The position numbers and the translations under genes were made by a program. The notes below the pieces were generated by a model. That model made no database searches. It was not told where the DNA came from and saw nothing but the letters and a program-made list of their open reading frames with translations. Positions 32,132 to 37,295 of a DNA stretch of 64,000 bases are shown one piece after another. Positions within the stretch are counted from its first letter, which is position 1, and each line of letters starts with the position of its first letter. This DNA comes from Halorussus salilacus (GTDB lineage: Archaea; Halobacteriota; Halobacteria; Halobacteriales; Haladaptataceae). The stretch spans positions 2,356,001 to 2,420,000 of the forward strand of contig NZ_CP099993.1 of NCBI RefSeq assembly GCF_024138125.1, read 5' to 3'.

Positions 32132-32671
32132 TCACACCTCCGAGTGTCGCCCCTCGGAGTTCTCCGTCTCGTCGGCGACAGCAGCGTCCTCTACCGGCAC
32201 TTCGCGGGGCTCGTCTCGCCGAATGGGGACGGTGATTTCGAGTTCGTCGAACCGGACGACCGGACGCTTTGACCGACCCGATTCGACCAACTCCACGACT
32301 CCGAGAGCCTCTAACTCCCGCAGATTCCGATGCACCTCCTTGTGGTCGCGTCCGACGATTTCCTCGACCTGTCGCATGCTCTCGGGGTCCCGATTGGCGA
32401 TGGCTCGAAGCAACTCCAGATTCGTCTCGCTCACGAGTCGAGCGAGGTCGGCTTCGTCCTCGAAGTTGAGGACGTGGCGCTCGTCGAGGTCCTCGCCGCG
32501 CTCGGCCGCCCGGACTCGCTCGCGGGCCTCCCGGTGGAGTTCGTCGGCGTCACCGACGCGAACCGAGAGCGTTCTGGTCGGCCCGTCCTCGGTGTCCGGG
32601 TCCGGGTCTGGGTCGGGGTCGCTGGGGTGCTGTTCGTCACGGGCGGCGTTCGGGTCGGTATCTGGACACAT
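32132..32671 (-). CDS. HTH antitoxin of a TumE-type toxin-antitoxin pair
   Basis: This 179-residue protein has an acidic N-terminal tail (Asp/Pro-rich, ~1-30), a central winged helix (NLELLRAIANRDPESMRQVE with recognition helix HKEVHRNLRELEALG, about 83-122) and a charged C-terminus. It resembles HVO_A0114-type putative DNA-binding antitoxins. It follows the toxin gene with 3 bases between stop and start, and would repress the shared promoter whose TATA box lies in a palindrome. Confidence 0.75.
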   Translation of the reverse strand: MCPDTDPNAARDEQHPSDPDPDPDPDTEDGPTRTLSVRVGDADELHREARERVRAAERGEDLDERHVLNFEDEADLARLVSETNLELLRAIANRDPESMRQVEEIVGRDHKEVHRNLRELEALGVVELVESGRSKRPVVRFDELEITVPIRRDEPREVPVEDAAVADETENSEGRHSEV

Positions 32672-32674
32672 GGG

Positions 32675-32995
32675 TTATCGAACCTCCGAATCGCGGGTGG
32701 CAGGCCGGGTGTTACGGTAGTTCGTCACTTCTCGCTGAAACCGGGCGAGTAGGTCGAACATCCCGGGAAACTCGATTTCTTCGATTCCGTCGGCCGTGTG
32801 GCGCTCGCGGCCTTTCGTCGGCTCGTGAGCGTTGTCGAAGCGGACTATCAGGTCGCCTCCGAGAGACCCGAAGTGGAGCGAGTAGTCCCACCCGCTCGGA
32901 TACTTCGGGTCGTCCGTCTTCCGGACGGTGACCGCTTCGACGAGGTCTCCGGGGTAGTAGTTCGTGTACTCTTCGACTTCCGTGTAGCCTGCCAT
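32675..32995 (-). CDS. TumE-family toxin (DUF6516)
   Basis: This 106-residue protein starts at the ATG at 32995 (MAGYTEVEEYTNYYPGDLVE). The pattern GWDYSLHFGSLGGDLIVRFD (about residues 35-54) followed by a conserved His and FPGMFDLLARFQREV matches DUF6516/TumE toxins. These proteins pair with HTH antitoxins in archaea and bacteria; the mode of action is poorly known. An upstream ATG would read through the promoter and is rejected. Confidence 0.75.
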   Translation of the reverse strand: MAGYTEVEEYTNYYPGDLVEAVTVRKTDDPKYPSGWDYSLHFGSLGGDLIVRFDNAHEPTKGRERHTADGIEEIEFPGMFDLLARFQREVTNYRNTRPATRDSEVR

Positions 32996-33031
32996 CCGCA
33001 CGAATTGGTTCCGTTCCCGTTCAAATAAGTT

Positions 33032-33051
33032 TGGTGGGTATAAACCCACCA
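33032..33051. promoter_or_regulatory. palindromic operator over the TATA box of the TumE operon
   Basis: TGGTGGGT (33032-33039) and ACCCACCA (33044-33051) are exact complements around ATAA. On the minus strand the box reads TTTATA within the palindrome, about 45 bases before the toxin start. A dimeric HTH repressor bound here would block TBP directly. Confidence 0.65.
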
Positions 33052-33083
33052 TGGACCGACCGACCACCAATAGAACGTCCGAG

Positions 33084-34655: not shown

Positions 34656-36365
34656 CTATCGACTCGCGAACCCCGGGCGCTCGCCGACCCGCTTCGGGAG
34701 GTAGCGGGGCGGGTTCGGCAGGTCGCCCACGTCTTCGAGGACCGCCTCGCGAAGTTGCTCGACCGTGAGTTCGCGCTCGGCGTTCTCGCCCCGGACGGAG
34801 ACCGCGAGCGCGGTCTCCTCGCCGTCCTCCGCCCCGCCGCGCTCGACCTCGCGGTCGCCGACGACCGCGTAGTAGGGGACCCGGTCGGTCTCGGCGCTCG
34901 CGAGTCGCTCGCCGACCGTCCGGTCGCGGTCGTCAACGTCGACCCGGATTCGGGCCGCTTCGAGGCCCTCGGCGAGGGCGTCGCAGTACGCGGCGTGACG
35001 CCCGTCGACCGGGACGAACCGGACCTGCGTCGGCGCGAGCCACGTCGGCAGGCGCGACGGAGCCGATTGCCCCGCCGCGGGCGCGCCGGTCGCGACCAGC
35101 GCGTCGACCGCGCGCTCGTTCACCGGCGAACCGCGGACGACGGCCGACGGCGTTCCCTCGCCGCCGGTCCGGTCGTCGGGTTCCGCCGCGGCGGTCCGGT
35201 CGTCGAGTTCCACCTTCGCGGTCCCGACCGGTCGCCCGCCCGCGTCGAGGGCGGCGAACTCGACCGCGACCGACGGCCGCCCCGGGCGCTCGGGACGGAG
35301 TTCGAGCAGGGCGGGCGCGCCGAGGTCCTCGACCAGCGACGCGACCCACGATGTCTCGGCGTCGTGGAACTCCAGGGTCGCTCGGACCACGGGGAGCCGT
35401 TCGAGACCGAGGTCCTCGCCCGCCCGCACGGCGAGTCGAGCCTGCGCGCGGAACTCCTCGCGAGCTTCGTCGGCGTCGCGGGTCGCGGCGCGTATCGTCC
35501 CGAACCCCCCAGCGGCGTCCGTCTCGTACAGTCGCACCCGACCCCCGCGCTCGCGGGCGTCGGCGACGCCCGCGAGCGCGAGACCGTCGTTCCCGAACGG
35601 GTCGGCGTCGCCCGGCGTCTCGACCGGCGTCGCACCGTACTCGACCGCGAGGTCACGGGCGTACGCCGCGAGCGCGTCCCGAACCAGCGTCTCGCGGGGG
35701 GACCTCCGGGACGCCTCGGTCGCGCTCGGCGCGTCGTCCTCCGTCTCGGTTCTCTGCTCGGTCCTCTGTGCGGTTCTCTGCTCGGTCCTCTGTGCGGTTC
35801 TCTGCTCGGCTCCCATCTCGGCCTCGACGAGCGCGCGCACCTCGTCGCTCACGCGGTCGTCGTCGGCCGCTCCGGGGAGGTCGCCGACCTCGCCGCCGGG
35901 AAAGACCAGTCGCCACTCGCTCGGGTCGCGCTCGGCGGGGCGCTCGGCCGTGACGCGCCGGGAGAACGCCGAGAACGGGTGGCCCTTGTCTCGCACTTCG
36001 AACGCCGTGTGCCAGCCGACGGGCGCGCGCAGGACCTCGTACTCGCCGTCCAGCGCGGCGGCGAGGTCCCGGAGGGCTGTCGCCGCGGTCTCGGAGTCGG
36101 CGGGGTCGTCGCTCAGATGGGCGGAGGGATAGAGGACCACCTCCCGGGCGTTGAGTCGGTCGGTCGCGTCCCGGACCGCCTCGGCGGCGTTCGCGACGAC
36201 CGCACCGAGGTCGGCGCGGTCCTCGCCCTCGACGGTGACGAACGCGACCACGCAGTCCTCCGTCCGGCCCTCCGCGGGGGCGTCCTCGGTCTCGGCGAGT
36301 TCCTCGTCGGCCGCCGTGGTCGCCTCGAACGCCAAGTAATCGGCGTGGACGAACACCAGTCTCAT
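34656..36365 (-). CDS. editing-only threonyl-tRNA synthetase paralogue (catalytic core degenerate)
   Basis: This 569-residue protein has the archaeal ThrRS N-terminal editing domain (MRLVFVHADYLAFEATTAAD..., about 1-140, with VLYPSAHLSDD) and a recognisable C-terminal anticodon-binding domain (LPTWLAPTQVRFVPV to the end, about 470-569). Between them the class II core is shortened: the zinc-ligand Cys and two His and the motif 2 Arg expected in ThrRS are absent. A repetitive AEQRTAQRTEQRT linker separates the domains. It probably removes serine from tRNA-Thr in trans. Confidence 0.78.
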   Translation of the reverse strand: MRLVFVHADYLAFEATTAADEELAETEDAPAEGRTEDCVVAFVTVEGEDRADLGAVVANAAEAVRDATDRLNAREVVLYPSAHLSDDPADSETAATALRDLAAALDGEYEVLRAPVGWHTAFEVRDKGHPFSAFSRRVTAERPAERDPSEWRLVFPGGEVGDLPGAADDDRVSDEVRALVEAEMGAEQRTAQRTEQRTAQRTEQRTETEDDAPSATEASRRSPRETLVRDALAAYARDLAVEYGATPVETPGDADPFGNDGLALAGVADARERGGRVRLYETDAAGGFGTIRAATRDADEAREEFRAQARLAVRAGEDLGLERLPVVRATLEFHDAETSWVASLVEDLGAPALLELRPERPGRPSVAVEFAALDAGGRPVGTAKVELDDRTAAAEPDDRTGGEGTPSAVVRGSPVNERAVDALVATGAPAAGQSAPSRLPTWLAPTQVRFVPVDGRHAAYCDALAEGLEAARIRVDVDDRDRTVGERLASAETDRVPYYAVVGDREVERGGAEDGEETALAVSVRGENAERELTVEQLREAVLEDVGDLPNPPRYLPKRVGERPGFASR

Positions 36366-36442: not shown

Positions 36443-36496
36443 ACCCGAACCACGTCGGGCGGGACTGAAAGGGGCCGGGGGCTTTCTGGCGGTTCA
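36443..36496 (-). repeat. dispersed intergenic element, copy D (minimal, minus orientation)
   Basis: On the minus strand it reads AGAAAGCCCCCGGCCCCTTT followed by CAGTCCCGCCCGACGTGG. Both conserved ends are present with no hairpin between them. It lies between the ThrRS paralogue and the DUF5812-like gene. Confidence 0.7.
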
Positions 36497-37104: not shown

Positions 37105-37295
37105 CAGAAAGCCCCCGCCCGGTCGCTACGAGAGGGTGCAGATGCGAGTGTGAACGCCCAGAAAGCCCCCGCCCGCTCGCTACGAGAGAGTGCAGATGCG
37201 AGTGTGAACGCCCAGAAAGCCCCCGCCCGGTCGCGGGCCGAAGGCCCGCGACCGGGCGGCCCCTTTCAGTCCCACCCCACGGTGGTCTGTCGGGG
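37105..37295 (+). repeat. dispersed intergenic element, copy C, with a triplicated 5' module and perfect hairpin
   Basis: The 54-bp module beginning CAGAAAGCCCCCGCCCGGTC occurs at 37105, 37159 and 37213; the first two are near-identical and the third enters the element body. A perfect 15-bp hairpin follows (37225-37239 with 37243-37257, loop GAA), then GGCCCCTTTCAGTCCCACCC and GGTGGTCTG. No gene is seen in this 308-base gap. Confidence 0.85.

Follow-up and report, generated by a model that had tools for sequence, protein, structure and literature searches.

Two forms of ThrRS, the bacterial-type ThrRS-C and the archaeal-type ThrRS-R, have been described as homeoalleles (PMC3191353). Replacement of one form by the other was earlier inferred from trees; in 2011, no genome was reported to have both, and a period of coexistence before loss was proposed (PMC3191353). 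The crenarchaeal ThrRS-ed proteins (for example, Aeropyrum pernix ThrRS-2; model NF011500) combine a DTD-like domain and an anticodon-binding domain with no working synthetase; they keep the editing Lys and are active (PMC4491819). Duplicated synthetases that have largely given up catalysis are known from other families. LeuRS2 of Halobacteria and LeuRS-I of Sulfolobaceae show little or no aminoacylation and still bind tRNA, and HisZ, a class II HisRS paralogue without adenylation activity, has a regulatory role (all reviewed in PMC9437257). A search of the open-access literature turned up no account of a degenerate ThrRS-R in haloarchaea.

A gene of this kind lies in the window, the whole 64,000-nucleotide stretch of Halorussus salilacus DNA analysed here (Table 1). 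Its 569 codons run on the minus strand from an ATG at 36365, a start Met common to all homologues compared, to a TAG at 34656-34658. A plus-strand reading of 34656-36365 was discarded, as the resulting protein matched only itself. The plus strand opposite the gene holds an antisense reading frame of 613 codons, which illustrates how cheaply open frames arise in a GC-rich genome. Pfam assigns tRNA-Thr_ED to residues 1-137 (114.7 bits) and HGTP_anticodon to residues 447-544 (54.6 bits), and no recognisable domain in between (from 137 to 447), where the core remnant is predicted to retain a residual class II fold.

Table 1. Features of the pseudo-ThrRS gene in the window
Feature	Position	Strand	Remark
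Pseudo-ThrRS gene (degenerate archaeal-type ThrRS-R)	34656..36365	-	569 aa; translation
N-terminal DTD-like editing domain, residues 1-137	35955..36365	-	PF08915; fold kept, pocket dismantled
Linker, residues 138-217	35715..35954	-	model confidence low from residue 192
Perfect 24-bp tandem repeat, 2.6 copies, encoding EQRTAQRT, in the linker	35747..35809	.	in-frame expansion
Synthetase-core remnant, residues 218-437	35055..35714	-	motif 2 and the zinc-binding residues lost, motif 3 Arg retained
Anticodon-binding domain, residues 438-544	34734..35054	-	PF03129, 54.6 bits
Codon of Thr120, at the place of the critical Lys121 in the P. abyssi domain	36006..36008	-	alignment
Codon of His83, the only reactive pocket residue kept	36117..36119	-	alignment
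TATA-like element CTTTT, 26-30 nt before the start codon	36391..36395	-	leaderless-type promoter spacing

The 569-residue protein descends from ThrRS-R. It is collinear with the synthetase over its full length, and its start, locus and promoter element match those of intact members in the same genus. The direct ancestor differs in having the zinc ligands, motif 2 and the editing Lys. The earlier note had described a full-length ThrRS paralogue with a shortened core and no synthetase site, and alignment with intact haloarchaeal ThrRS-R bears this out. The zinc Cys is deleted, both zinc His residues are replaced by Arg, and motif 2 is deleted together with its Arg, while the motif 3 Arg is still present; the reference for these losses was a set of 26 ThrRS-R sequences with their synthetase residues kept. 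The length is 569 residues, compared with about 619 in the intact proteins. With all three zinc ligands and the motif 2 Arg gone, the protein also falls below the curated cut-offs for a functional ThrRS, scoring 323.3 against 484 for the NCBIfam ThrRS model NF003068 (intact relatives, 755-841) and 112.2 against 383.65 for TIGR00418. It would probably be inactive as a synthetase in the test tube.

A second, complete thrS, whose existence the earlier note proposed to check, is present in the same genome (99.95% complete), but the only other ThrRS is a bacterial-type ThrRS-C at C1:2027.6 kb, which carries an N2 editing domain and a serine-editing site of its own. Its synthetase and editing residues are intact here and in the other 19 genomes with a degenerate ThrRS-R (20/20). 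We take the key positions (E. coli numbering) to be H73, H77, C182 and H186 for editing, C334, H385 and H511 for zinc, and R363. Since ThrRS-C keeps H73, H77, C182 and H186, serine editing appears to be provided in cis, and a separate trans-editor would not be needed.

The latter point bears directly on the function proposed in the earlier note, namely a freestanding trans-editor that removes serine from Ser-tRNA-Thr, like the crenarchaeal ThrRS-ed. The layout of editing and anticodon domains without a synthetase site is indeed that of ThrRS-ed, and the fold of the editing domain is well kept. It scores 114.7 bits against a threshold of 30.2 for PF08915, which places it in the fold family, and its model (pLDDT 81) matches the M. 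jannaschii editing domain 4rrf with a Foldseek TM of 0.94. The claim that the domain is well preserved holds for the fold, but not for the pocket, in which Tyr120 is replaced by His, Lys121 by Thr and Glu134 by Ala (P. abyssi numbering) and His83 is retained. Within 6 Å of the scissile bond there are seven side chains, and deacylation by the editing domains of three archaea is severely impaired when the critical Lys is mutated (Lys121 in P. abyssi, Lys116 in A. pernix) (PMC4491819). The P. abyssi domain requires His83, the A. pernix domain only in part, and Tyr120 and Glu134 can each be dispensed with in P. abyssi (PMC4491819). Lys121 is the only functionally important editing residue that is clearly lost in the window's protein, and the chemistry of the fold, which relies on the tRNA 2'-OH (PMC4491819), needs few side chains. 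Both facts count against a mostly or wholly non-catalytic protein. The retained His83, the dispensability of Tyr120 and Glu134 and the dependence on the 2'-OH speak for trans-editing, and the degenerate domain may have residual or altered activity.

Comparison across the family nevertheless argues against serine editing in trans. Among the 18 complete degenerate proteins, Lys121 and Tyr120 are kept in none, Glu134 in three and His83 in eight. The editing pocket has been lost preferentially over the rest of the domain: 26% of residues are kept in the seven pocket columns versus 60% in the other conserved editing-domain columns (permutation p about 0.009). Damage to motif 2 and to the editing Lys came at about the same stage in early relatives, unlike in ThrRS-ed, where editing remained. 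The protein scores 141.8 with the NCBIfam Ser-tRNA(Thr) hydrolase model NF011500, far below the cut-off of 362, and its partner synthetase has an editing site of its own. Trans-editing of mis-serylated tRNA-Thr is therefore not supported, and we consider it quite improbable.

An altered deacylase is also improbable, if somewhat less so. In such a protein, the DTD-like fold would have been re-specialised for a differently charged tRNA-Thr (carrying, for example, glycine or a D-amino acid), and the anticodon domain would supply specificity for tRNA-Thr. The position of the critical Lys is occupied by Met in DTD (PMC4491819), and in 14 of the 18 degenerates the Lys has become Leu, Ile, Val or Ala. 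The His-Pro of the KGHP motif is present in all 18, and Gly117 and Trp118, in the stretch facing the terminal adenosine, are kept in 15. However, the substitutions at the Lys position are not uniform, and the residues of the P. abyssi oxyanion hole (81 and 82) vary freely. The domain has lost most of its editing pocket and would probably show no serine-editing activity in the test tube.

The distribution of the gene indicates how this state arose. In a class-level sample of 392 haloarchaeal genomes, PF08915 was found in 46, of which 20 have a degenerate ThrRS-R, 15 an intact ThrRS-R without ThrRS-C and 11 both forms. A degenerate ThrRS-R never occurs alone and is always accompanied by a complete ThrRS-C (20/20). 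In the 11 genomes with both forms, the zinc and motif 2 Arg residues of ThrRS-R are present, and one motif 2 residue is already missing in two of them (G172 and G374) and in G399 of the same genus. This coexistence contradicts the statement in PMC3191353, which reflected the genomes available at that time. Both enzyme types are those of the homeoallele system, but here many genomes have both, all stages of decay are found, and the losing form appears to persist as a maintained protein.

The window's genus shows the whole path, so that the tempo of each active-site loss becomes measurable. All 18 of its genomes carry the gene. Eight copies are intact, four show early lesions (G395, G374, G172 and G399), and five are demolished (G000, G396, G394, G024 and G162); the copy in G400 is cut short and was left out of the series. 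The early lesions include a motif 2 deletion in G374, G172 and G399 and the change of Lys121 to Thr in G172 and G399. In most members, a Na+/H+ antiporter gene follows ThrRS-R, and in G024, G394 and the contig-split G162 the neighbourhood is partly different or truncated. The decay has thus occurred in place.

Outside this genus, the degenerate genes of families f7 and f4 lie mostly behind the gene order 6-2-5 or 2, which is common to the intact ThrRS-R of f8 (and partly f3). Their partner ThrRS-C is of another subtype than that of the window's genus; the two subtypes separate in the ThrRS-C tree at 100/100. With two ancestral loci and two ThrRS-C subtypes involved, at least two separate decays are most likely. 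A tree built from both end domains conflicts with this evidence, as it groups every degenerate into a single clade inside the grade of the window's genus (100/100). We consider long branches and convergence the likelier cause of this topology. A single origin followed by lateral spread, as the tree would suggest, was set aside in view of the different locus and ThrRS-C subtype in f7 and f4.

Two further arrangements were observed around ThrRS-C. Two genomes of the sister genus g2 (G123 and G325; L143-L146) have no PF08915 match and carry two ThrRS-C genes, one of each subtype. In genus g40 (G356, L148/L105; also G125 and G070), an intact ThrRS-R and a ThrRS-C are arranged head to head with a few hundred bases between them, and the newcomer ThrRS-C may have landed next to the resident ThrRS-R.

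The pseudo-ThrRS could also be redundant and slowly disappearing since its displacement, without any function today; the residual constraint would then reflect only the avoidance of harmful products or a recent loss. The graded decay inside one genus fits such a course. The gene was not found in 4 of 6 g68 genomes and 12 of 18 g48 genomes (the latter mostly incomplete), which makes it dispensable. One copy, in G327 (L054), has an in-frame TAA in the core with the rest of the frame intact, which may reflect an assembly error or mark a true pseudogene. The protein evolves rapidly: close pairs share 37-87% identity in the degenerate protein where their ThrRS-C share 86-97%. Selection is relaxed, with YN00 whole-gene omega, obtainable for two degenerate pairs, at 0.27 and 0.13, compared with 0.01-0.06 in intact pairs and 0.09 in the early-lesion pair G172/G374.

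Nevertheless, these omega values lie below 1, and codon-position differences, used for the diverged pairs, agree, with the third position differing most in the remaining degenerate pairs. Purifying selection thus acts in the relatives. Between the window's gene and that of G172, the core and linker look nearly unconstrained and both end domains constrained. No stop codon occurs in the 18 complete degenerates, compared with a mean of 2.7-5.4 each in a neutral simulation at half the divergence; for the window's gene alone, the simulated probability of no stop is 0.12. In seven close degenerate pairs, all 63 gap blocks are in frame, a count conditional on a surviving frame as these proteins were already known to be open. 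In family f7, the gene is kept in all nine genomes, which belong to three genera.

The start codon and the promoter element are kept as well. A CTTTT placed 26-30 nt before the ATG has the spacing of a leaderless haloarchaeal promoter. Within the 60 nt upstream that were scored, a TTTT begins at -31 to -24 in 18 of 20 degenerates and in 17 of 26 non-degenerates, and none was found at the scored background positions. The gene is presumably expressed. With an open frame, omega below 1 in relatives and a retained promoter element, the remnants are not ordinary pseudogenes, and we regard slow decay as unlikely, although it is the most likely of the rivals, ahead of an altered deacylase and then of trans-editing.

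The pattern of conservation points to what may be retained. Mean identity among the degenerates falls from 51% (anticodon domain) and 40% (editing domain) to 30% (core) and 24% (linker), and the retention of conserved columns follows the same order, at 75%, 56%, 33% and 28%. The earlier note's view that the anticodon-binding domain is well kept (PF03129, 54.6 bits) is upheld, as it is the best conserved region of the degenerate family. The Glu at the position of E. coli Glu600 (residues 439-511 aligned on 533-605 of 1qf6) is kept in 16 of 18. This conservation suggests that binding of tRNA-Thr is likely still present. A homologue only 33% identical to the window's protein is also predicted to fold (pLDDT 83).

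We propose that the bacterial-type ThrRS-C displaced the haloarchaeal ThrRS-R and now charges and proofreads tRNA-Thr alone. ThrRS-R, freed from catalysis, would have lost the zinc site, motif 2 and most of the editing pocket, but would have persisted at full length and folded, promoter included. Its function would require the anticodon domain and the overall fold; the simplest role would be to bind tRNA-Thr with no synthetase catalysis, for instance as a pseudo-synthetase that holds tRNA-Thr or acts in regulation. Such a fate of a displaced synthetase, now a putative tRNA-Thr-binding protein that is largely or entirely non-catalytic, is consistent with the complete ThrRS-C in all 20 genomes, the graded series, purifying selection, retention throughout f7 and anticodon-domain conservation. 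The absence from some relatives, the TAA in G327, the fast evolution and the single-clade end-domain tree count against it, and we see its chances as evenly balanced.

LeuRS2 and LeuRS-I are precedents for tRNA binding without aminoacylation, which the pseudo-ThrRS would share; unlike it, they are class I, their active sites are less stripped, and they are not remnants of a displaced synthetase. HisZ resembles it as a class II synthetase-like protein without adenylation activity, but derives from a different synthetase and has a known partner, HisG. Selection keeps the losing form in separate lineages, which suggests that displaced synthetases can take on tRNA roles that need no catalysis. As a tentative suggestion, displacement may repeatedly, in at least two lineages, have turned the loser into a maintained pseudo-synthetase of like final form (no synthetase site, a rebuilt editing pocket and a conserved anticodon domain), and these lineages would then share an undescribed function directed at tRNA-Thr.

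Two features of the neighbouring sequence were also observed. A 54-bp tandem repeat of 2.4 copies at 37105-37234 has the core CAGAAAGCCCCCGSCC, which recurs in the opposite orientation at 36473-36488 (minus strand), a short way upstream of the pseudo-ThrRS gene. Genome-wide, this core was counted 61 times (0 for the reversed control), frequently in 54- or 57-bp arrays of up to six copies. At 32132-33070 on the minus strand, beside the antiporter gene, adjacent genes match the TumE toxin (PF20126) and the HVO_A0114 regulator family (PF25212) and likely form a toxin-antitoxin pair.
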